A DNA stretch of 64,000 nt. It comes from Romboutsia lituseburensis. Lineage in GTDB: Bacteria > Bacillota > Clostridia > Peptostreptococcales > Peptostreptococcaceae. The position numbers and the translations under genes are program-made. A model generated the notes under the pieces. The model ran no database searches and had not been told where the DNA came from. It saw nothing but the letters and a program-made list of their open reading frames with translations. The DNA lies in assembly GCF_024723825.1 (NCBI RefSeq), contig NZ_JANQBQ010000001.1, positions 806,001-870,000 on the forward strand, given 5' to 3'. This document shows, piece after piece, positions 9,804-46,027 of the stretch. The number at the start of each line of letters is the position of its first letter. The stretch's first letter is position 1.

Positions 9804-9807
9804 CTCG

Positions 9808-11022
9808 GTTTAATACATCTCATGTTAAGGTTAATCCACGCTAGGCGAGTTTATAAGATTAATAGAAATATTGTTTAAATACATCTCATGTTAAGGTTAA
9901 TCTAAATCTGAAAAAAATAAGATAGCCTTTTTTATATGGTTTAAATACATCTCATGTTAAGGTTAATCGTTATTATTTGGATTAAATTTTTTCATTATAT
10001 CACTGTTTAAATACATCTCATGTTAAGGTTAATCAAATTGAATACATGTAATATAGTAAACTATTAAGAGGTTTAAATACATCTCATGTTAAGGTTAATC
10101 AGAGGACGCTATCGAAGAAGGGGACCCCGTAGAGCTGTTTAAATACATCTCATGTTAAGGTTAATCAAGTTATAAAGCCGATACCAATGAAAGGACTTTT
10201 GGGGTTTAAATACATCTCATGTTAAGGTTAATCAACTTTAAATTTTTCTAAAGCTTTATTTGCTAATGCGTTTAAATACATCTCATGTTAAGGTTAATCA
10301 TGAAGGAAATATTAACTTGCGGAAATGTTGTTAAGTTTAAATACATCTCATGTTAAGGTTAATCTAATAATAGAAAACTATAATCCACCATTCATACTTA
10401 AGTTTAAATACATCTCATGTTAAGGTTAATCATGGAGAGTTTAAGAAAAGAGTTAGGTGAAAAATTGTTTAAATACATCTCATGTTAAGGTTAATCTTAA
10501 TTAAATTTATCATTAAGGGGGACGAATAGACAGTTTAAATACATCTCATGTTAAGGTTAATCGCTTGATATTATAATAGACGCTCTAAACATGTTTACGT
10601 TTAAATACATCTCATGTTAAGGTTAATCTTACAAGATATTTGCAACGAGGTAAACAAAGTACTGTTTAAATACATCTCATGTTAAGGTTAATCGTTTATT
10701 CACAATGTTAAAAAGAAAGGGTGTTTATAGTTTAAATACATCTCATGTTAAGGTTAATCTTATACATTACCAAGCATATGTAAAAGCATACTTAGTTTAA
10801 ATACATCTCATGTTAAGGTTAATCACGAATAAAAGGAAAAAATATATATAAATTAACTAAGTTTAAATACATCTCATGTTAAGGTTAATCAAGGTAATTC
10901 GGCTAAGATGGTTGAGGACGTAATGAGTTTAAATACATCTCATGTTAAGGTTAATCTCATATAGAAGTTGATGAAGATGGACATTGTAGTTAGTTTAAAT
11001 ACATCTCATGTTAAGGTTAATC
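9808..11022 (-). CRISPR. Type I-B CRISPR array, 19 repeats and 18 spacers
   Basis: 30-bp repeats, in plus orientation beginning GTTTAAATACATCTC and ending GTTAAGGTTAATC. Repeats start at 9808 (29 bp, one A missing), 9873, 9939, 10005, 10071, 10137, 10204, 10270, 10335, 10402, 10467, 10533, 10599, 10664, 10730, 10795, 10861, 10927 and 10993. Spacers are 35-37 bp and all distinct. Transcription is on the minus strand: the crRNA-sense repeat ends TGTATTTAAAC, a strong promoter lies at 11036-11064 beside cas2, and the degenerate repeat is at the far end at 9808. Apart from that terminal copy the repeats are identical, which points to an active or recently active array. Confidence 0.97.
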
Positions 11023-11064: not shown

Positions 11065-11092
11065 TCCCTTAAAATCACTTAAATTATATGGA

Positions 11093-11199
11093 AATTTACC
11101 AAGTAAAACTTAAATTATATAAAATTTAATATAATATAGTTGTAACCATTGAAATAACTAGATTCATAATCCATATCAATATTTTCCACTTGGTAAATT
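11093..11199. repeat. 12-bp inverted repeat framing the CRISPR leader
   Basis: AATTTACCAAGT at 11093-11104 and its exact reverse complement ACTTGGTAAATT at 11188-11199, the latter overlapping the cas2 stop codon. Separated by 83 bases of A/T-rich DNA. Possibly a leader-binding site for adaptation proteins. Confidence 0.55.
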
Positions 11200-11488
11200 A
11201 AATTATTAAATCTTCACCTGTATTATTCTGTTCTTTTCCAAGTACTTCTTCTCCAAACACACTATCATTCAAAAGCTTAATAATACAAACAAAATCCTCT
11301 TCTTTATCTAAAACTTTGTTTAAATCATTTTTGAAGGTTATCATATCCGAAGGAGTTATTTCTCCTCTGAAAACAGATTTTTGAAAATGAGATAAATATT
11401 TTTTGCATACTTTAAATACTTTATTTACTCTCTTTTCTCCAACATCATAAAAAACAAATGCATAGTTATAGTTCATGTTTTTACTCAT
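11198..11488 (-). CDS. cas2: CRISPR-associated endoribonuclease Cas2
   Basis: 96 residues. Cas2 forms the adaptation complex with Cas1 and bridges two Cas1 dimers during spacer insertion. The N-terminal strand AFVFYDVGEKRVNKVFK carries the conserved Asp after the first strand, followed by CKKYLSHFQKSVFRGE, typical of type I-B Cas2. AGGAG precedes the ATG, and the start overlaps the end of cas1 within two bases. It is the last gene of the operon, next to the CRISPR leader. Confidence 0.95.
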   Translation of the reverse strand: MSKNMNYNYAFVFYDVGEKRVNKVFKVCKKYLSHFQKSVFRGEITPSDMITFKNDLNKVLDKEEDFVCIIKLLNDSVFGEEVLGKEQNNTGEDLII

Positions 11489-11489
11489 A

Positions 11490-12488
11490 TTAAATCTTCT
11501 CCTTTAAGCTAAAAGGTACAAATTCTTTATCTTCCATTATATATTTTATAAGTTTATAACAGTCTAGCTTGATAGCTGTTCTATAAGTTACTTTTCTCTT
11601 TAATCTATTGTGCATAAATACTGATTCCATTCTTTCTTCAAATGCAGTTATAAAAATATTTCTACCCTCTTCACTAAGTAAACAGTAATTAACTTTTTTA
11701 TCAAAATGTTTAGTAACTTGAATCTTTTTATTATTAACTAAATCAAATATAGTCCTATAAACTAAAACTGGTTTAAATACCTCACTTATATCTAAGCTTA
11801 GTGAAAATCTTCCTTCAGATGGTTCATGTAAATAACTTATTCTTTGATCTAGATGTGTTCTATATATGGAAGATATAGTCTTTGTGTATAATAAGCTATT
11901 TCCAAATGAAACTAATGCATTAATAGGGTTATCTGGTGGTCTTTTTACTCTTTTATTCATTATAAACTCTTCTGGTAGAAAATTTTTAAATTCTCTATAA
12001 AATTTTTCCCATAACTCACCTTCCACACACATTAGTTCTCTTATATTCTTACTGTTCTCAACTCTATCAAAAAAGATTTCTTTTATCCAATCTACGGTTC
12101 CTTTTACTTCTTTTTTCCCATGTTTATAATAATGATAAAGAACTTCTATTATATTAATACCTATACCTCTAACAATAGCTTTACTTATATCTAATCGGTT
12201 ACTTTCGAATTTTTTTACCTGTTTAACTAATAATTTCCCACTATTGTATTGATTCTTAGGATAATATGTACCACTATAACCTTCATAATAATTAAAGAAA
12301 TGAACTATTATATTATTACGTGCTAAAAAGTCTAATAGTTTTGTATTTATACTTACTTCGTTTAAACAATATATTTCTTTTGTATTTTCTACAGGTATAT
12401 AAACGTTTTTGCCGTTTTTTCTAAAGCAGAGTGAGTTATCTTTTCTTGTTAATTCCCCCATAGAAGTTATATAACGTGTACTTCCCAT
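11490..12488 (-). CDS. cas1: CRISPR-associated integrase Cas1, type I-B
   Basis: 332 residues; inserts new spacers at the leader end of the array. The catalytic set is visible: Glu in CVEGELWEKFY, His in RISYLHEPSEGR and Asp in SLDISEVFKPVL. NSLLYTKTISSIYRTHLDQ is the typical alpha-helical core. The ATG at 12488 follows AGGAGG and is preferred to an in-frame start seven codons earlier. The ribosome site lies at the end of cas4, eight bases away. Confidence 0.95.
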   Translation of the reverse strand: MGSTRYITSMGELTRKDNSLCFRKNGKNVYIPVENTKEIYCLNEVSINTKLLDFLARNNIIVHFFNYYEGYSGTYYPKNQYNSGKLLVKQVKKFESNRLDISKAIVRGIGINIIEVLYHYYKHGKKEVKGTVDWIKEIFFDRVENSKNIRELMCVEGELWEKFYREFKNFLPEEFIMNKRVKRPPDNPINALVSFGNSLLYTKTISSIYRTHLDQRISYLHEPSEGRFSLSLDISEVFKPVLVYRTIFDLVNNKKIQVTKHFDKKVNYCLLSEEGRNIFITAFEERMESVFMHNRLKRKVTYRTAIKLDCYKLIKYIMEDKEFVPFSLKEKI

Positions 12489-12496
12489 ATTTCCTC

Positions 12497-12991
12497 CTAT
12501 ATATAGCAATACTCATAGTACGCACATTTTTTACATTTAGGTTTATTTAACACCTTAGGTATAACATCTGTATCAATTAGATTTTCTATATCGTCAATGT
12601 ATTGGTTTAACTCTTCTTCTATTTCTTCATTTAACTCTAAATGTATTATTTTTCTATCAGTTTTATTTTTTTCTATAAATTCTAACTTGCCTTTTCTATA
12701 TATGCCCTTGTCCTTTAATATTTTCAAATAAAATATCAATTGCCATTTAGCTGCATCTATATCAGCATCTGATTTTTTTACTTCTGTAAGATATTCTGAG
12801 GTAAGCTTGTCTAGTTTTATATTATCTATTGATATTTCTGTGTTTTCCAATTCTCCTGCTTTACTTTCATGTATTGCTTTTCCTATTTTAACTATTTCAC
12901 TATTATCCTCTAAGTTGAGTCTATTTCCATGAAGGTAGCATTGCCTTTTACAGTGAAAATAGTAGTTTACTAAAGTCCCATTTACTTTCAC
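12497..12991 (-). CDS. cas4: CRISPR-associated exonuclease Cas4
   Basis: 164 residues, a RecB-type Fe-S nuclease that selects PAM-bearing prespacers. The cluster cysteines are the first Cys of FHCKRQCYLHGNR and the C-terminal CKKCAYYEYC. The nuclease core includes IGKAIHESKAGE and the QLIFYLKIL region. Starts at GTG and overlaps the cas3 stop by one base (TAGTG), with AGGAG ten bases upstream. Standard length for Cas4a. Confidence 0.93.
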   Translation of the reverse strand: MKVNGTLVNYYFHCKRQCYLHGNRLNLEDNSEIVKIGKAIHESKAGELENTEISIDNIKLDKLTSEYLTEVKKSDADIDAAKWQLIFYLKILKDKGIYRKGKLEFIEKNKTDRKIIHLELNEEIEEELNQYIDDIENLIDTDVIPKVLNKPKCKKCAYYEYCYI

Positions 12992-15558
12992 TATATAAAA
13001 TCTCCTATTCCAGTAGTTAATTTTTCTTTGTCTACTTTTCCATCTCTAAAGTACTTTTCACCATCTTCTATGAAATAAAGTTCTCCGACCCTATCATTGT
13101 AAGGAATATTTGTTTTCTTCACTTGGTATATAAAATAATTAAGCAAACTTCTTGCTTCTGATAATTTAACTTGCTTCTCTGCATATTCTAATTTTTTATC
13201 CAAAAGAAGCTTTCTATAATTATCCCAAATTTCCTTACCATCTAATATTAAGTTATCTTCTGTTTTTATTCTTGTAGATAAATATACAGACATGCTCCAC
13301 ATATCCTCTGATATAAGTTCCATTCTAGATTTTATTTTTTTGAAATTTAATCCTCCAACATCTTGTGAGAAAAAGTTATCTAAATTAAACTCACATAACG
13401 ATTTATTATATGTTTTTATTGCATCTAATACTGGTGAGTAGTAATTTTCAAACTTTTTATTTATTAGTATTTCTTTCATATTTTCATCTTCTAATGTAAA
13501 CTCTTTATTCATTCTAAGATCATTTTTATATATGAAATTTGCTTTGTCTATATTGAAAAAATAGATAATTCCGGATTTTTTACATGAGCGATTTATTCTC
13601 CCCATAAATTGTTCTTCGCTATCTAACTTTGATATATCTTTATATCCTTTATCCATATCAATATCGACACCAGCTTCTACTACTTGAGTAGCTACTAATA
13701 TAATGTCATCTGTTTTATCTACAAGATCAAGTATTCTTTGTCTCTCTATAGAATTATCGTCACCTGTTATTAGCTCAATTTTTGATTGAATTTCTTCGTC
13801 TTCTTTTAATTTATTATAAAAATCATAAGCACTTTGTTTTTTTATAAATTCCACTATTATTTTATTCTTAGCAAAACTACTCTCTTTTACATGATTATAT
13901 AATTCGTCTATGTCCTTATCTATTAAATCATATATAACTTTTACTCTATCTTTAAATAATGGATGATTAAAATATTTCTCTCTATTTACAATTAAATTAG
14001 TAGTATTTTCAACTTCATTTGTAAGATAATTTAAATTTGGTAGAGTTGCCGACATAATTATTACTTTCATATTTAATATTTTTGCAAATCCTTTTAAGAA
14101 TGTAATTATCTCTGTCCAAATTGTATTTTTATAACTTTGTATTTCGTCTAAGACAATTACACTATTAGCTAGTTGATAAAAAGCAAATGATGATTCTTTT
14201 TTATTATCAAACATAGTATTGAATAAGCTTACATGTGTTGTAAGTATCATTGGATAATTTAAGAATTGTCTATTTAATAATGCTTTTGCATAATATTCAT
14301 AATCAAACTCTTCACTAGATTCTTCTTTTTTTGATGAATACTTTTCAACTTTTATAGGATTTATAGAATTTACTACAGCTATATTTTTAAATATATCCTC
14401 ATTTGAACCAAATATATTTTTCATAGTTTTTATATTTTGCTCTATAAGTGTGTTATATGGATAAATATAATATATTTTATTCATGTAGTTATTACTTTCT
14501 AATAGCTTAAAACTAAGATTTAGAGATACATTACTTTTTCCACTTCCTGTAGGAGCTTCTAAAAAGTATATATTACTCTCTAAGTTTTTACTAAGTTCAT
14601 TCTGTGCATCTAAAAACATTTCTGTTCTTAATATATTTATATTTCTCTCATTTGTAAGATCTTTTTCTTTCTTGTATTCTTTTTCCTCATATTTACTTAT
14701 ACTTTTGTATATTTCTCCATTTTTATAAATATCATAGAACAGAGAAATATCATTTATTTCACCAAATTCATCAAGCTCTAGATTATTCATAAATTCTGTA
14801 GTTGCATAAAAATCACAAGCTACTAATAAGGAGAATACAAGCTTTACATAAGTATATATGTAAATACTTTCTTCTTCGCTATTTTCTTTTAGTTGCTTTC
14901 TTACATTTGAGCATTTTATTTTCATTTTTTTATATAAAGGACTTATATTTTTGTTATATATTTCTTTGTAATTTTCATTTCCTAAAGACTCTATTACTTT
15001 GCTTGCATCTCCTGGGTAATCTTCATGAAATGAATCTACAAATTCATTGAATCCACTTAGATCTCCGTGATGTCTCGATATTATATAGGAATTTAAAAAT
15101 AGTATGTGAGATAATTTTTTAAATGTTTTTTTATCTAACTTCTTATATTTGTCTACTTCTTCAATAAAATAATCTAAGTAAAGTATCGAAGATATAATGG
15201 AGTGTTTACTTCCTAGATTTTCAAATATTTCTTTATTTATTATTTTATTATTCATTTTCTCACATTGAAACTTTGGATTTATTTTTCCTATATCGTGGAA
15301 GTTAATTGTATTTACCAACAGCTTTCTAAATAATGTCTTTACTGATTTATCTGTATTACCTAAGTACAGTTCTTCAAAATTCTTAAATATATTTCCTATG
15401 TTTTTTGCAGCATCTATTTTTAAAAAATATTTATTACATCTATCTATGTGTTCTTTTAGTGTTTCATTTTCACCTGATTTTATATGTGCATAAAAATCTA
15501 TATTATCTTTGATTAATAACTCTATATTTATTAAATCTTCTCTTTTAAAGTAATTCAT
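12991..15558 (-). CDS. cas3: CRISPR helicase-nuclease Cas3 (HD plus DExD/H)
   Basis: 855-residue effector that unwinds and degrades DNA marked by Cascade. The N-terminal HD nuclease has IDRCNKYFLKI and NFHDIGKINPKFQ, then SRHHGDLSGF. The helicase has Walker A EAPTGSGKSNVS (about residue 332), motif II VLDEIQSYKN, motif III SATLPNLN and motif VI EEQFMGRINRSC. All motifs are intact and HD and helicase are fused in one chain, so the interference machinery looks active. Translated with cas4 and 40 bases from cas5. Confidence 0.96.
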   Translation of the reverse strand: MNYFKREDLINIELLIKDNIDFYAHIKSGENETLKEHIDRCNKYFLKIDAAKNIGNIFKNFEELYLGNTDKSVKTLFRKLLVNTINFHDIGKINPKFQCEKMNNKIINKEIFENLGSKHSIISSILYLDYFIEEVDKYKKLDKKTFKKLSHILFLNSYIISRHHGDLSGFNEFVDSFHEDYPGDASKVIESLGNENYKEIYNKNISPLYKKMKIKCSNVRKQLKENSEEESIYIYTYVKLVFSLLVACDFYATTEFMNNLELDEFGEINDISLFYDIYKNGEIYKSISKYEEKEYKKEKDLTNERNINILRTEMFLDAQNELSKNLESNIYFLEAPTGSGKSNVSLNLSFKLLESNNYMNKIYYIYPYNTLIEQNIKTMKNIFGSNEDIFKNIAVVNSINPIKVEKYSSKKEESSEEFDYEYYAKALLNRQFLNYPMILTTHVSLFNTMFDNKKESSFAFYQLANSVIVLDEIQSYKNTIWTEIITFLKGFAKILNMKVIIMSATLPNLNYLTNEVENTTNLIVNREKYFNHPLFKDRVKVIYDLIDKDIDELYNHVKESSFAKNKIIVEFIKKQSAYDFYNKLKEDEEIQSKIELITGDDNSIERQRILDLVDKTDDIILVATQVVEAGVDIDMDKGYKDISKLDSEEQFMGRINRSCKKSGIIYFFNIDKANFIYKNDLRMNKEFTLEDENMKEILINKKFENYYSPVLDAIKTYNKSLCEFNLDNFFSQDVGGLNFKKIKSRMELISEDMWSMSVYLSTRIKTEDNLILDGKEIWDNYRKLLLDKKLEYAEKQVKLSEARSLLNYFIYQVKKTNIPYNDRVGELYFIEDGEKYFRDGKVDKEKLTTGIGDFI

Positions 15559-15598
15559 AAAGTTCCTCCTACAAATAAGGAAGGGTTTCCCCTCCCTC

Positions 15599-16363
15599 TT
15601 AAAAGAATACTATATTCTTATTGTTTATTTTATATATATCACTTACAGTAATAGAGTCTATACACATATTACTAAATACAAAACTTTCTAACTCATACAT
15701 ATTAGTTGCTTCATATAATGCTATTGGCAATCTTTCACTATATTTAAACAAATCCTCTTCTTCATCATTTTCCATATCAAATTCAACATAACTTTTAGGG
15801 CATAATGAGTCTATTTTATCAATATCATCATATTCCACAATATCTTCTACATCATATAATTCTATTTCACTTATATTTGCATAATGATCATTTTTACCTA
15901 AGTATGGTTGATACACTGTTTTGTAATTAGCAATGTAATCGCTTAATTTATTGGCTTCTTCATTATCTAATAATACATAAATGTTCCATTTAGGATTTTC
16001 TAACCATTGTTCTTTTACTATTAAGTTGCATAAATTTTTGTCTTTATCTTTATTGTAATCTCCTATTGAATTATTAAAAAATTGTACTTTTTTAGGAGTA
16101 TAAGCCTTCTCATTCAGTGGTTCTATAGATACCCTTAATGCATTTAGCTTACTATAAAACTCAGGATATGGGTCTTTGTAACTTTTTATATTGTCTAAGT
16201 TATATCTGTGTTGATTATACCCACCATATCCAAGTATTGCACCAAACATACCTAATAGGGCAACTTTATGAATACTTCCATAGGTAAAATAATAATATGA
16301 GTTAACTTCGGGCTTTTTAAAAAATGCTGTTTTCCCTGATAATTTAAATTTTAAAGCCTTCAT
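15599..16363 (-). CDS. cas5: Cascade subunit Cas5, type I-B
   Basis: 254-residue RAMP protein that caps the 5' handle of the crRNA in Cascade. The N-terminus MKALKFKLSGKTAFFKKPEV and the family-typical LLGMFGAILGYGGYNQ identify Cas5b/h. The acidic middle (MENDEEEDLFKYSE) is variable in the family. Three bases separate it from the cas7 stop. Confidence 0.92.
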   Translation of the reverse strand: MKALKFKLSGKTAFFKKPEVNSYYYFTYGSIHKVALLGMFGAILGYGGYNQHRYNLDNIKSYKDPYPEFYSKLNALRVSIEPLNEKAYTPKKVQFFNNSIGDYNKDKDKNLCNLIVKEQWLENPKWNIYVLLDNEEANKLSDYIANYKTVYQPYLGKNDHYANISEIELYDVEDIVEYDDIDKIDSLCPKSYVEFDMENDEEEDLFKYSERLPIALYEATNMYELESFVFSNMCIDSITVSDIYKINNKNIVFF

Positions 16364-16366
16364 AAT

Positions 16367-17314
16367 CTATACCTCTTTTTGTGTAAATATATTAATTTTT
16401 TTAGCTCCTTCTATTTCAGATTCTATATTAGTTGTGTAAGGATTATAATAAATTTCCACTTTTAATATTCTATCTTTTAATGAATTTAGCAATTCAGAGC
16501 AATTTAATTTAATTGTATTCTTCTCGTCCCCTTTAGTAAACTCAATAAACTCATCTAAATTAGGTAAGTATAAGTCTGATTCTGTTTCTACAAATAGTGC
16601 AAACTCATTATCACATCCTGCTTTTGCATTAGTTGCAAATGATGTAGCTGATACTAAAGCTGCTTTCTTAAATTTGCTATAGTCTTCTTCTGTGTATCCA
16701 TCTGTTACACCGAGTTCTTTAAATTCTTTATATGCCATAGTATTTATAGTAAATGGATAGAAGTAATGAGCTTCATTACTTACAATTTTTGTTCCTAATG
16801 TTGAGTTTTTAGCTTCTTCTGAATCCTCTTTTTTATTATCTTTTGATGCATCTCTAAATGGAGACAATATTTGTTGTTCTTCAGGGCTTGTTCCATCAAA
16901 CTTATTAAATCCTTGCCCAATTTGTACCGCTCCTGTGATAGATATATTATTTCCTGATTCTGCAAATGTTGCTCCGAAATTTTTTACATCTAATGCATTA
17001 AATAAATTTGTTAGAACTACTTTACTATCTTTGCAATTTTTCAAATCATCTACATTAAATAAATGTTCATATCTTTCTTTCAACGAACGAGGTACTAGTG
17101 ATATTTCTCCCTTATTCTCTGATAATTTCATTGTCTTTATATAAAGTACTTTTTCCCCTTGATTCTCCCACATTTTTTTCATTGGATACTTTAATGCCTT
17201 ATCACTTCCAAATGTTTCTCCATCAGATGTTGTCTTTGGATAACCTGTAAAATCAGCATTCCAATTTGCCATTTTAGATACTATTCCTATTGCTCCATAA
17301 ACTCTCTTATTCAT
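16367..17314 (-). CDS. cas7: Cascade backbone subunit Cas7 (Csh2-like), type I-B
   Basis: 315 residues; several copies wrap the spacer part of the crRNA. N-terminal MNKRVYGAIGIVSKMANWNA matches Csh2/Cas7 of type I-B, and the glycine-containing segments GAVQIGQGFN and the C-terminal VEIYYNPYTT are family features. Its start overlaps the cas8b stop by one base (TAATG), so subunits are translated coupled. The thumb-like region contacts crRNA every sixth base, which matters for the mismatches in the candidate regulatory guide upstream of cas6. Confidence 0.93.
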   Translation of the reverse strand: MNKRVYGAIGIVSKMANWNADFTGYPKTTSDGETFGSDKALKYPMKKMWENQGEKVLYIKTMKLSENKGEISLVPRSLKERYEHLFNVDDLKNCKDSKVVLTNLFNALDVKNFGATFAESGNNISITGAVQIGQGFNKFDGTSPEEQQILSPFRDASKDNKKEDSEEAKNSTLGTKIVSNEAHYFYPFTINTMAYKEFKELGVTDGYTEEDYSKFKKAALVSATSFATNAKAGCDNEFALFVETESDLYLPNLDEFIEFTKGDEKNTIKLNCSELLNSLKDRILKVEIYYNPYTTNIESEIEGAKKINIFTQKEV

Positions 17315-19056
17315 TATTTATCCTCCTTGTTACTTTCATAAATTAGATTACTATGCAAATATCCTGCTATTATCATATCTTGATTTACTTTTCCTTGTGG
17401 CTCATATGATACTATCATGGCATATAGATTTTTTACTCTTCTTCCATGCATATCTATATCATAGTTATATCTTTTATATAAATTTCTTAATTTTTCTTTT
17501 ATTGCTTCATTATTTTTTGCATTTATAAATGGATTTGCTAGTGAATGTGGTTTATTTTTACCTTTACTTTTTGATAATAAATAGTTCACAAATTGTCCTA
17601 CTGAAAAATAATATTCCTCATCTGATTCAAAAGAACTTGTATCTGCACAGTTTATCTTTGTTCTAAGGTTATTCTTTAGTTCTAACACTATATCTCCCAT
17701 ATCATTTCCTCCTTTAAAATAACTTTTTATAGCTTGTCTCAAATTGAATTGATGTGATGCTTTTGGTATATATCCGTTTGTAATTGAGTTCTTTATTAAA
17801 TCTAATGATACTTTATTTAATACACCATATACTCCATTTTCATTCCCTTTATAAATCCAATTAAAAATAGCTTGTCTTGATAATAATAAATTTCTTTTTA
17901 TAACACTATCTTTAAGTGATATATCTTTAGCTTCTGTATAATAGTTATTTATCAAGTATTTTGAGAAAAATACATTATCTATAATAAATTGCAAATCTTT
18001 TCTATTTTTACAGCTACCATATTGTAAATCTGATTTTAATTTATCTTGTAAGCTTAATACGTCTTTAAAATTAAGAGGCTTACTTAATTTATACTTATAT
18101 GATGTTACTAAATCATAAGAATGTATCTCTACTTCTTTCCCTTTTTTTATTCTCATATACATACCTTCAAAATCTGCTTCTGGTAATTCACCATTTTTAA
18201 ATGATTTAATACCATCTTCATTAAGATATATATTGGTTTTTCCTTTAGTTGCATAGTTCATTAGGTAATCAAAAAATTTCTTTTGCAATAAGATATCCTT
18301 GTTATCTACCATATATGGTACTTTTACTTTCCTTGTTTTGTTTTCTAAATATGGCTTATTAGAATTTAAATTCATGTTATCATTAGGTACCCCATACAAA
18401 GTATCTTCAACTTTTTCATTAAAATCGTTTTTACTGTAGATATTAGGTATTAAGTATCTTTTGCCTTCTGTTATGTACATTTCCATAGTAACTATTACAA
18501 ATATTTTTAGATAATCTTTGCCTTTTATATCAATACCTAGTTCATCAAGATTAAAAATATTGTCTTTTATCCAATTTTTAATCTTATTTAATAATTCTTG
18601 ATCTATTGCTTCTAATTGAGATTCTACTGTTTCGTATATTTGTTTAGCTTTAGTTTTAGTATATTTTAAATAAGGATTAGATAAAGTTTTATAATAATTA
18701 TCTATTATTTCTTCTGTAAGTTTTCCATTGCTTAAACTTTCTTTTTTTATAATGAAAGATAAATAATTATTTCCTTGTATAATTTTTTTACTATCCATTG
18801 GTTTTTGCATGTCGATAAGTTTACTATTATAATCATAATTACAAATCTCATTGAAGTGTAAATTATTTCTTCCTTCAACTTCACCCGTTTTTTTATTGTA
18901 TTTAATATCTATTGAATGCTCTATTTTGAAATCGTTTTCACCTTCTGTTGAAAGTAGTATATATTTTCCATCAGATGGTATGTAATTATCTAGTATTAGC
19001 TTGTCCTCATATTTTTCATATTCTTTTGTAAATACTTCAATACAATCTTTTAACAC
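17314..19056 (-). CDS. cas8b: Cascade large subunit Cas8b
   Basis: 580 residues, the large subunit that reads the PAM and recruits Cas3. Large subunits diverge fast, so identification rests on position between cas6 and cas7, on length, and on a type I-B-like N-terminus (MLKDCIEVFTKEYEKYEDKL) with a C-terminal helical domain (KNEAIKEKLRNLYKRYNYDI) that may act as the small subunit. AGGAGG-type ribosome site; 12 bases from cas6. Confidence 0.9.
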   Translation of the reverse strand: MLKDCIEVFTKEYEKYEDKLILDNYIPSDGKYILLSTEGENDFKIEHSIDIKYNKKTGEVEGRNNLHFNEICNYDYNSKLIDMQKPMDSKKIIQGNNYLSFIIKKESLSNGKLTEEIIDNYYKTLSNPYLKYTKTKAKQIYETVESQLEAIDQELLNKIKNWIKDNIFNLDELGIDIKGKDYLKIFVIVTMEMYITEGKRYLIPNIYSKNDFNEKVEDTLYGVPNDNMNLNSNKPYLENKTRKVKVPYMVDNKDILLQKKFFDYLMNYATKGKTNIYLNEDGIKSFKNGELPEADFEGMYMRIKKGKEVEIHSYDLVTSYKYKLSKPLNFKDVLSLQDKLKSDLQYGSCKNRKDLQFIIDNVFFSKYLINNYYTEAKDISLKDSVIKRNLLLSRQAIFNWIYKGNENGVYGVLNKVSLDLIKNSITNGYIPKASHQFNLRQAIKSYFKGGNDMGDIVLELKNNLRTKINCADTSSFESDEEYYFSVGQFVNYLLSKSKGKNKPHSLANPFINAKNNEAIKEKLRNLYKRYNYDIDMHGRRVKNLYAMIVSYEPQGKVNQDMIIAGYLHSNLIYESNKEDK

Positions 19057-19068
19057 ATTCCCACCTCC

Positions 19069-19767
19069 TTATAACCATCTATAGTTCATGAATCCGGCAC
19101 CCCTTGAATTGCATTCTAACAATCCTACACCAAGCGACATATAAGCCAATTCTTGTGCTATCTCATTATCTGATATATTTAAAGAGATTTTATCTCCAAG
19201 TAGCTTTACATTTTTAATATTCATTGTACAAGGTTTTCTATTTTTAAACTCCAATGTTGTATAAAACTCAAAATCCTCATCAATTTTTGTGTTGTTTATT
19301 CTATTGTACTTTTTTATTAAATTCTCAATTAATCTTTTTTCAAAATCTCTTAATGAGAGGTTGTTCTTCCAATAACCATTATCACTTTTCATTATCATAG
19401 GTGATATAGAGTATATTTTTTCTATAAACTTTTTAGGAATTATCTTTATTTTTGTAGTAAGGCATTTAATAGTGTCATTAAATTCATTCGCTAATATCTT
19501 TTGAAGATATCTTGCTAATTCTTCATTTATTGTTCTTATTGTGAATGTATATATTTGATTAGATTTGTATATCTTGTCTTTAGGAATTGGATATAATGAA
19601 TCGAAACAGTAATTTTTATATTCATTAGTTTTATGAAATTCTAACCAATCTTTATTTTTAGATAGTGAACTATCTATTATTTTGCATATTTCACATTGGG
19701 CATCTTGAGTTAAGATATTTTTTAAAGTAAATACCTTACAACTTATTTGATATACTTGTATTTTCAT
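19069..19767 (-). CDS. cas6: Pre-crRNA endoribonuclease Cas6
   Basis: 232 residues; cuts the repeat 8 bases from its 3' end to give the ATTTAAAC-type handle. The C-terminal glycine-rich loop SLGVGLLECNSRGAGFM is the diagnostic Cas6 motif, following two ferredoxin-like RAMP folds. First gene of the cas operon, with AGGAG before the ATG. It is preceded by a 150-base leader that contains a repeat-like segment (19806-19849), a possible Cas6 substrate. Confidence 0.94.
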   Translation of the reverse strand: MKIQVYQISCKVFTLKNILTQDAQCEICKIIDSSLSKNKDWLEFHKTNEYKNYCFDSLYPIPKDKIYKSNQIYTFTIRTINEELARYLQKILANEFNDTIKCLTTKIKIIPKKFIEKIYSISPMIMKSDNGYWKNNLSLRDFEKRLIENLIKKYNRINNTKIDEDFEFYTTLEFKNRKPCTMNIKNVKLLGDKISLNISDNEIAQELAYMSLGVGLLECNSRGAGFMNYRWL

Positions 19768-19805: not shown

Positions 19806-19849
19806 GTTTAATATAGATTGATTTACCTCTATACAAAATTTAAATACAC
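19806..19849 (-). ncRNA. Candidate crRNA-like regulatory RNA (CreR-type) in the cas operon leader
   Basis: In the minus-strand transcript GTGTATTTAAAT (19849-19838) matches the 3' end of the CRISPR repeat (ATGTATTTAAAC) in 10 consecutive bases. AACAT a few bases upstream also matches the repeat. The next 17 bases (19837-19821, TTTGTATAGAGGTAAAT) would be the guide. They match plus-strand DNA at 19895-19911 (TTAGTGTAGAGATAAAT) at 14 of 17 positions, with mismatches at 3, 6 and 12. That site is just inside the cas promoter and is preceded by TTTCA. TATTAAAC at 19813-19806 resembles the end of the degenerate terminal repeat. Cas autoregulation by such RNAs is known in other type I systems; this instance is inferred from sequence only. 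Confidence 0.6.
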
Positions 19850-19891
19850 CTAAATATGTTGATGTTTATATAACTACTTATATTTATTTTT

Positions 19892-19911
19892 TCATTAGTG
19901 TAGAGATAAAT
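19892..19911 (+). promoter_or_regulatory. Candidate Cascade operator within the cas promoter
   Basis: TCA at 19892-19894 (preceded by TT, giving TTTCA, a PAM reported for clostridial I-B systems) followed by the 17-base site partly matched by the leader guide. It lies at about +6 to +22 of the predicted transcript, and a bound Cascade reaching further upstream would cover the -10 box. Confidence 0.5.
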
Positions 19912-19923
19912 ATTTGTACTTAA

Positions 19924-19952
19924 AGAGTAGTCCACTTTTTCTCATATGTCAA
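19924..19952 (-). promoter_or_regulatory. cas operon promoter
   Basis: Minus strand TTGACA (19947-19952), 17-base spacer, TACTCT (19924-19929). Perfect -35 and a weak -10. It gives a leader of about 150 bases before cas6. Confidence 0.6.
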
Positions 19953-37114: not shown

Positions 37115-37149
37115 AAAAAGCACCTACTATATTAAGTAGGTGCTTTTTT
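37115..37149 (-). terminator. Original terminator of the ABC-F gene
   Basis: AAAAAGCACCTACT / AGTAGGTGCTTTTTT, just after the displaced 3' end of the ABC-F gene. Confidence 0.85.
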
Positions 37150-37166
37150 ATACTTATCTCACTAAA

Positions 37167-37436
37167 TTACTTTGCACCTTTGTACATTTCTTTTAATTGA
37201 GCTTGTATATCCTTATTATCTAAGTACTCATCAAGAGTAGTTTTTCTATCCATTATTCCATTTGGAGTTATTTCTATTATTCTATTTGCAAGAGTTTGTA
37301 TCATCTCATGGTCATGAGAGTTAAATATTAATACTCCTGGGAATTTTTCTAAACCTTTATTTACAGAAGTTATTGATTCTAAGTCTAAGTGGTTAGTTGG
37401 GTCATCTAAAACTAATACGTTAGCATTTGATAACAT
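37167..37436 (-). pseudogene. Displaced 3' end of the ABC-F ATPase gene
   Basis: About 90 codons (VLVLDDPTNHLDLESI, then FNSHDHEMIQTLANRIIE) nearly identical to the C-terminus of the ABC-F protein at 44402-46027, but ending KEMYKGAK instead of KEMYGNTK. It keeps the native terminator. The prophage inserted within the gene cut this piece off. Homology stops abruptly at 37436, where element DNA begins. It may still be read from an in-frame ATG but would be only half an ATPase domain. Confidence 0.9.
37345..37436. repeat. Left 92-bp direct repeat (attachment-site copy)
   Basis: Identical base for base to 44580-44671, ending GCATTTGATAACAT. Outside it the two ABC-F copies differ by scattered substitutions on one side and are unrelated on the other. 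The recombination core must lie within this repeat. Confidence 0.85.
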
Positions 37437-44300: not shown

Positions 44301-44382
44301 AAAAGCACCTCCTGTGTTAGATAGCATTTTTAAAAGTTAACATATAACTTTTAATACTATCTAATACACATTAAGTGCTTTT
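44301..44382 (-). terminator. Element-borne terminator of ABC-F that contains the integrase ribosome site
   Basis: Minus strand: AAAAGCAC ... CTATCTAA arms pairing across the region (GTGCTTTT at 44375-44382 with AAAAGCAC at 44301-44308; TGTGTTAGATAG at 44313-44324 with CTATCTAATACACA), plus an inner AAAAGTT/AACTTTT hairpin, ending in a seven-T run. The AGGAGG of the integrase lies in the 3' arm. Confidence 0.7.
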
Positions 44383-44401
44383 AAATAATTATCTTATTAA
44401 A

Positions 44402-46027
44402 TTACTTTGTATTTCCATACATTTCTTTTAATTGTTTTTGTATATCCTTATTTTCTAAGTACTCATCAAGAGTAGTTTTTCTATCCATTAATCCATTTGG
44501 AGTTATTTCTATTATTCTATTTGCAAGAGTTTGTATCATCTCGTGGTCATGAGAGTTAAATATTAATACTCCTGGGAACTTTTCTAAACCTTTATTTACA
44601 GAAGTTATTGATTCTAAGTCTAAGTGGTTAGTTGGGTCATCTAAAACTAATACGTTAGCATTTGATAACATTAACTTAGATAACATACATCTAACTTTTT
44701 CTCCCCCAGATAAAACTTGAGATTGCTTTAAAGCTTCTTCTCCAGAGAATAACATTCTACCTAGGAATCCTCTTATAAAACTTTCACTCTTTTCTTCTGA
44801 GTATTGTCTTAACCAGTCAACTAATGAATATTCTATTCCATCGAAGTATTGGTTATGATTTTTAGGAAGATATGATTGAGATGTAGTTACTCCCCATTTG
44901 AAAGTACCTTCATCTGCTGTATCTTCTCCCATTATTATGTTGAATAAAGTAGTTATAGCTATTTCATCACCCATAAATGCTACTTTATCTTCTTTATCTA
45001 ATCTGAAAGATACATTATCTAAAACTTTAACGCCATCTACAGTTTTAGTTAATCCTTCAACTTCTAAAACTTCATTACCGATTTCTCTTTCAGGAGTAAA
45101 TCCAACATATGGATATCTTCTTCTTGATGGTTGTATTTCATCTAGTTCTATCTTGTCTAATTGTTTCTTTCTAGATGTAGCTTGCTTTGCTTTAGATGCA
45201 TTTGAACTGAATCTTGCGATGAACTCTTTTAATTGAGCTATTTTTTCTTCAGCTTTTTTATTTTGATCTTTAGCTAATTGTAAAGCTAATTGACTTGATT
45301 CATACCAGAAATCGTAGTTACCTACATACATTTGTATCTTACCAAAGTCAACATCAACTATGTTTGTACATATTTGATTTAAGAAATGTCTATCATGCGA
45401 TACAACTATTACGATAGAATCTTCTAGACCCATTATAAACTCATTTAACCAGTTTATAGATTGGAAGTCTAAGTGGTTTGTAGGTTCATCCATTATTAGT
45501 ATTTCAGGCTTACCAAATAGTGCTTGAGCTAATAACACTTTTACCTTTTCTCCACCAACTAATTCTTTCATTTGTTTATAATGTAATTCTTTAGGTATTC
45601 CAAGACCCATTAATAATCTTTCTGCATTAGTTTCTGCATCCCATCCGTCAAGTTCAGCAAACTCACCTTCAAGTTCAGCAGCTTTTATACCATCTTCTTC
45701 TGAGAAATCTTCTTTCATGTATAATGCGTCTTTTTCTTTCATTATAGCATAAAGTCTTTCATGACCCATTATAACTACATCCAATACAGTATTTTCTTCA
45801 TATTTGAAGTGATCCTGTCTAAGAACTGACATTCTTTCCTTTTCTGTTATTGAAATACTTCCTGTATTTGCTTCTATATCACCAGCTAATATTTTAAGGA
45901 AAGTAGATTTTCCTGCACCATTAGCTCCTATTATCCCGTAACAATTACCTTTAGTGAATTTTAAGTTAACATCTTTGAATAACTCTTTATCACCAAATCT
46001 AAGTCCAACATTTGTAACTTGTAACAT
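44402..46027 (-). CDS. ABC-F family ATPase (ribosome-associated), 3' end supplied by the prophage
   Basis: 541 residues with two ABC domains and no membrane part. First Walker A is GANGAGKSTFLK, signature VGGEKVKVLLAQALF, Walker B LIMDEPTNHLDF. The linker SNASKAKQATSRKKQLDK is typical of ABC-F. The second signature is LSGGEKVRCMLSKLML and Walker B VLVLDDPTNHLDLE. The second Walker A region reads FMGDEIAITTLFNII, degenerate, with no GxxGxGK. ABC-F proteins act at the ribosomal exit site in translation or antibiotic protection. Length and sequence are closest to the YkpA/YbiT group. The last ~90 codons lie inside the mobile element. Confidence 0.9.
   Translation of the reverse strand: MLQVTNVGLRFGDKELFKDVNLKFTKGNCYGIIGANGAGKSTFLKILAGDIEANTGSISITEKERMSVLRQDHFKYEENTVLDVVIMGHERLYAIMKEKDALYMKEDFSEEDGIKAAELEGEFAELDGWDAETNAERLLMGLGIPKELHYKQMKELVGGEKVKVLLAQALFGKPEILIMDEPTNHLDFQSINWLNEFIMGLEDSIVIVVSHDRHFLNQICTNIVDVDFGKIQMYVGNYDFWYESSQLALQLAKDQNKKAEEKIAQLKEFIARFSSNASKAKQATSRKKQLDKIELDEIQPSRRRYPYVGFTPEREIGNEVLEVEGLTKTVDGVKVLDNVSFRLDKEDKVAFMGDEIAITTLFNIIMGEDTADEGTFKWGVTTSQSYLPKNHNQYFDGIEYSLVDWLRQYSEEKSESFIRGFLGRMLFSGEEALKQSQVLSGGEKVRCMLSKLMLSNANVLVLDDPTNHLDLESITSVNKGLEKFPGVLIFNSHDHEMIQTLANRIIEITPNGLMDRKTTLDEYLENKDIQKQLKEMYGNTK
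44580..44671. repeat. Right 92-bp direct repeat (attachment-site copy)
   Basis: Identical to 37345-37436; inside the coding region of the intact ABC-F gene, around codons for SNANVLVLDDPTNHLD. From 44672 upward the sequence is chromosomal ABC-F DNA without a counterpart at the left end. Confidence 0.85.

Follow-up and report, generated by a model that had tools for sequence, protein, structure and literature searches.

A probable CreR-type autorepressor RNA in the leader of a clostridial type I-B cas operon

Introduction

CreR (cas-regulating RNA; Liu et al. 2023) has been described for type I-B, I-E, and V-A systems, according to the passages on it in three reviews (PMC12737573, PMC13131331, and PMC12948488), and those passages in the first two present it as sensing crRNA load and anti-CRISPRs. 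CreTA/CreA of type I-B haloarchaea (PMC9458426) has a psiR1-psiS-psiR2 unit that keeps the crRNA handle in psiR1, has lost it in psiR2, and partially matches a site behind a PAM. In scaRNA-Cas9 of Francisella novicida, as outlined in the same paper (PMC9458426), a degenerate repeat and a match of ~15 bp make a Cas effector act as a repressor. In type I-B systems, repression without interference has been seen with spacers as long as 24 nt in Haloarcula hispanica (PMC10989794) and 26 nt in Parageobacillus (PMC10551041).

Here, we compare with these systems the cas leader in a 64,000-nucleotide stretch of the Romboutsia lituseburensis genome (the window). The locus resembles CreR, as the reviews' passages outline it, in three respects: its mini-CRISPR is linked to the cas operon of a type I-B system, its guide is partially complementary to the region of the cas promoter, and autorepression is predicted. 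It differs from that outline in that the unit lies downstream of the promoter, in the probable cas 5' untranslated region (UTR), with its target on the opposite strand. With CreTA/CreA, it shares the psiR1-psiS-psiR2 order, the handle retained in psiR1 but not in psiR2, and the partial match behind a PAM. In contrast to CreTA/CreA, its target is the cas leader, a toxin was not found, the PAM is TCA rather than TTC, and a small hairpin absent from the haloarchaeal repeats is retained in the clostridial ones. The likeness to scaRNA-Cas9, in the outline cited above, extends to the degenerate repeat and short match, but there the effector is type II and the target is a separate lipoprotein operon. 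With a complete I-B operon, a mini-CRISPR linked to cas, a PAM-flanked site in the promoter region, and a match below the length needed for interference, the locus is very probably best classed as a CreR autorepressor.

Results

On its minus strand, the window contains a complete type I-B operon (cas6-cas8b-cas7-cas5b-cas3-cas4-cas1-cas2, 19767 to 11198, from NCBIfam profiles), in which cas6 (TIGR01877) occupies 19069 to 19767 and the genes from cas8b to cas2 occupy 11198 to 19056. Downstream of the operon lies a minus-strand CRISPR array (9805 to 11022) with 19 copies of the native repeat GATTAACCTTAACATGAGATGTATTTAAAC; no other array with this type of repeat was found in the genome. The leader of this array (11080 to 11200) contains the motif ACTTGGTAAATTT. 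Elsewhere in the window, two 300-base stretches 7.2 kb apart (37137 to 37436 and 44372 to 44671) are 94% identical.

Outside the array and upstream of cas6, the cas leader contains a degenerate mini-CRISPR, psiR1-psiS-psiR2 (19867 to 19783). Along the minus strand, the order is TTGACA, TACTCT, the target region, psiR1, the guide, psiR2, GGAG, and the cas6 start at 19767. Within psiR1 (19867 to 19838), the minus-strand sequence TGTATTTAAA (19848 to 19839) is identical over 10 bases to the native repeat at its 3' end, the match that the original prediction had noted and assigned to the crRNA 5' handle. The 3' end of psiR1 reads TGTATTTAAAT (19848 to 19838) and retains the 8-nt handle ATTTAAAT (19845 to 19838), and its GTGT can pair with an upstream ACAT or ACAC to form a hairpin. 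The guide, psiS, is 25 nt long (19837 to 19813), and its first 17 nt (19837 to 19821) match the target. The original prediction had placed the repeat-like handle correctly but overlooked psiR2 (19812 to 19783), which completes the unit. This second repeat begins ATTAAACCACAACACATGGTGT, agrees with the consensus repeat at 16 of 22 positions, and keeps a 4-bp stem (ACAC-ATG-GTGT) without the handle part; the same element is present in a sister genus (G067), where the stem is ACAC-GTG-GTGT. The ACAC/GTGT stem is a compensated form of the ACAT/ATGT of the repeat, and across loci the psiR stems stay paired despite changes on both sides (ACAT/ATGT, ACAC/GTGT, GCAT/ATGC, and ACAA/TTGT). By the rules of crRNA processing, Cas6 cuts after both GTGT stems would release a mature CreR RNA of 55 nt (19845 to 19791, minus strand), and the GGAG ribosome-binding site of cas6 (19777 to 19774) lies 13 nt past the predicted psiR2 cut site. 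The leader gave no match in Rfam, and a plasmid search found no similar leader.

The guide TTTGTATAGAGGTAAAT (19837 to 19821, minus strand) matches a protospacer-like target, TTAGTGTAGAGATAAAT (19895 to 19911, plus strand), at 14 of 17 positions, with mismatches at 3, 6, and 12, just as originally reported. The mismatch at position 3 falls in the seed, and this locus matches less well than the sister genus; because of this seed mismatch, repression may be weaker here than in relatives. Directly 5' of the target is TTTCA (19890 to 19894), which had been proposed as its PAM and which works as one in the type I-B system of C. pasteurianum (PMC4860712); the 3-base flank TCA (19892 to 19894, plus strand) recurs in 28 of the 30 loci described below. 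From these regulator sites and the function of TTTCA in C. pasteurianum, we infer that TCA is the PAM. A search for phage matches to array spacers, aimed at establishing the PAM, left one usable case, in a relative, with a flank of AATTGA and not TCA: a spacer from the array of G013 (locus L031) matches an smc-like gene of Clostridioides phage AR1074-1, with the seed fully matched and AATTGA as the 5' flank. The range of PAMs used in interference may extend beyond the TCA seen at the regulator sites.

The probable cas promoter consists of a -35 element, TTGACA (19952 to 19947, minus strand), 17 nt before a weak -10 element, TACTCT (19929 to 19924), which aligns with a -10-like TATACT in G067. 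A consensus promoter scan listed no cas promoter, the TACTCT -10 included. The target does lie between the cas promoter and the guide, as the original prediction held, but the 17-bp protospacer lies downstream of TACTCT and covers the predicted transcription start, not the -10 box that bound Cascade had been proposed to reach. Just before the promoter, a 58-codon open stretch ending LKHLQGINNKDISKMEILDPHTVSLYIKKYTS (~20140 to 19950, minus strand), which we take to resemble the N terminus of an IS630-like helix-turn-helix transposase, gave no Pfam match.

The nearest relative, G067, belongs to a different genus, and its Cas6 is 70% identical. Its leader holds the same parts in the same order, and its guide TTTATATAGAGTTAAAT and target TTTATTTAGAGATAAAT are mismatched at positions 6 and 12 only. 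Position 4 is compensated, being G in both guide and target in R. lituseburensis and A in both in G067. Guide and target thus change jointly at this position, a positive outcome for the comparison of cas leaders that had been suggested as a check for covariation. The two loci also differ at positions 3 and 6 of the target and at position 12 of the guide.

We searched for Cas6 across the family, the order, the class, and two additional families, which yielded 100 distinct leaders and 30 loci (that of R. lituseburensis included) with mini-CRISPR units; sites were chosen by plain match over 17 bases. These ~30 clostridial I-B leaders, from 19 genera, hold equivalent units whose guides are nearly all different, each matching its own cas leader, and guide length is mostly 21 to 30 nt (median, 27; 25 in R. 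lituseburensis). Among the 29 relatives, mismatches occur at positions 6, 12, and 18 in 16, 17, and 18 cases, respectively, other positions from 1 to 15 are mismatched in at most one case, and the background level is reached from position ~22. Every sixth base is free in Cascade R-loops, and the sites therefore bear Cascade's mark: the six-base mismatch rhythm is, at the level of sequence, the signature of a Cascade R-loop.

Because the list of loci had first been drawn with a score that ignored positions 6 and 12, we added two controls. Repeats inside true arrays of the same leaders were scored identically, and a qualifying TCA-flanked site (at least 13 of 15) was found for 27 of 35 solitary pseudo-repeats versus 2 of 93 array repeats (p = 2e-18); the two qualifying array repeats were both at an array end and both already among the thirty loci. 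With positions 6, 12, and 18 ignored, 21 of the 35 had perfect matches, compared to 1 of 35 for any of five alternative phases, in agreement with the tolerance at every sixth base by which the mismatches at 6 and 12 had originally been explained. When neither flank nor phase was required, the best site was still TCA flanked in 26 of 35. In Clostridium neonatale, a solitary repeat that precedes cas6 (L002) was rejected as a CreR candidate; it has no target and looks like a one-repeat array, because the array-leader motif ACTTGGTAAATTT precedes it.

To evaluate chance at the single locus, we used 3000 dinucleotide shuffles of the intergenic region as the null. A TCA-flanked site with at least 14 of 15 matches at positions other than 6 and 12 arose in 0 of 3000 shuffles, a site with the same match and any flank in 1, and one with any flank and at least 14 of 17 in 31 (1%); the repeat-end 10-mer appeared on the cas strand in 25 of 3000. 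In a blind test on an 800-base leader at 14 of 17, with no rule for flank or phase, p was 0.025. The target is the sole TCA-flanked site in the 64-kb window that reaches even 12 of 15, and in the 3.9-Mb genome it is the sole site with at most one mismatch to TCATTTGTNTAGAGNTAAAT (TCA plus guide, with 6 and 12 free).

The 30 loci show two layouts. In 25, the mini-CRISPR is upstream and the target downstream on the same strand; the clearest of these have the target just ahead of a TTGACA-TATAAT promoter, and a strict scan found a terminator-like hairpin between mini-CRISPR and target in 6 of them. In the other five (R. lituseburensis, G067, G555, G824, and G767), the mini-CRISPR stands directly before cas6, its target is farther upstream and on the other strand, and no terminator was found; in these loci, the CreR would belong to the cas mRNA, judging from the predicted promoter. 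The target lies ~180 to 210 nt upstream of psiR1 in G555, G824, and G767, where the promoter is unclear.

CreTA is known from type I-B systems (PMC9458426), and a similar addiction module, with the guided site governing a hidden toxin and not cas, would suit the three relatives of the same layout that have short ORFs between target and mini-CRISPR, as well as G316, in which a second target precedes a small DUF3791-like gene. In the window, however, the target is located at the cas promoter, and only the mini-CRISPR stands between it and cas6. The 45 bp from PAM to handle hold no ORF with a ribosome-binding site that could encode a toxin (a non-coding toxin would escape such a sequence check), and we regard this explanation as very unlikely. 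Still less probable is that guide and target act as an inverted repeat, forming a long-range stem in the cas 5' UTR that governs translation or termination. Both arms do pair in the predicted fold of the cas leader RNA, but that fold is no better than those of shuffles (z -0.69), the guide and target are direct repeats in 25 relatives, where such a stem is impossible, and a stem accounts for neither the TCA, the sixth-base mismatches, nor the handle. Least probable, and strongly disfavoured, is a functionless remnant of an old array with a chance or self-targeting match, for which the AT-rich DNA, the 1% of shuffles reaching a bare 14 of 17, and the one solitary repeat without a target in C. 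neonatale could be cited, but the unit is conserved with covariation from one genus to another, and the TCA flank and the controls for phase and for array repeats also speak against this reading.

Discussion

The unit, its site, the PAM, the 6-nt mismatch rhythm, and the conservation with covariation, as read from these genomes, make it highly probable that the leader unit is a CreR-type autorepressor of the cas operon. The leader transcript would bear psiR1-psiS-psiR2, from which Cas6 would cut a crRNA-like RNA of ~55 nt with a crRNA 5' handle. As the guide of type I-B Cascade, this RNA would form a short R-loop at the TCA-flanked site over the cas transcription start and block the promoter. 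With ~17 nt paired and a 25-nt guide, repression without Cas3 cutting would be expected from the published short-spacer repression in type I-B systems; the original view that the match is too short for cutting accords with the published limits of 24 to 26 nt, given 17 nt matched within a 25-nt guide. The outcome would be a homeostatic loop, in which free Cascade switches cas off and cas is released when Cascade is scarce or is taken up by many crRNAs or by anti-CRISPRs. The covariation with G067 and the ~30 leaders with guides matching their own leader support the reading of this operon as autoregulated. Against a CreR role stand the seed mismatch at position 3 in a match of 14/17, the weak -10, the promoter's absence from the scan, the AATTGA flank of the spacer match, and the ability of the guide to pair with the target copy in its own transcript.

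Judging from the predicted promoter, the R. lituseburensis unit apparently sits in the cas 5' UTR as part of the cas mRNA. Its position on the coding strand, with the promoter on one side and cas6 on the other, makes the cas mRNA the probable source of the guide. We consider it possible, if not quite probable, that the unit is a self-excising autorepressor: Cas6 would cut the guide out of its own message, so that guide supply would follow cas transcription and the mRNA would be trimmed right ahead of the ribosome-binding site. In the commoner clostridial layout, the unit stays ahead of the cas promoter. The same transcript would carry the complement of the guide, and guide and target copy could pair until Cas6 separates them. 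This uncommon 5' UTR layout may be a variant of its own.

If the CreR assignment holds across these loci, crRNA-like autoregulation would extend to many clostridial type I-B systems (19 genera sampled). The signature of a match ending near 21 nt with each sixth base free would offer a simple finder for such regulators, and the loci that carry it would provide natural data on the shortest Cascade pairing that represses without cutting. A CreR brake on cas expression may also matter where native clostridial I-B systems are used to edit genomes.

In G555, G824, and G767 (L065, L091, and L093), the interval from the CreR target to psiR1 contains short lysine-rich ORFs, and some of these have a plausible ribosome-binding site. 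The two that were searched had no Pfam match; CreT-like toxins or leader peptides are possible identities for these ORFs. In G316 (L044), the CreR guide has two TCA-flanked targets (~380 and 102 bases upstream of cas6). One, with mismatches at 12 and 18, is at the cas leader; the other immediately precedes an ORF of 71 aa whose match to DUF3791 is weak (E 0.003, below the cut-off). A single guide may there control both cas and a possible toxin-antitoxin-like gene.
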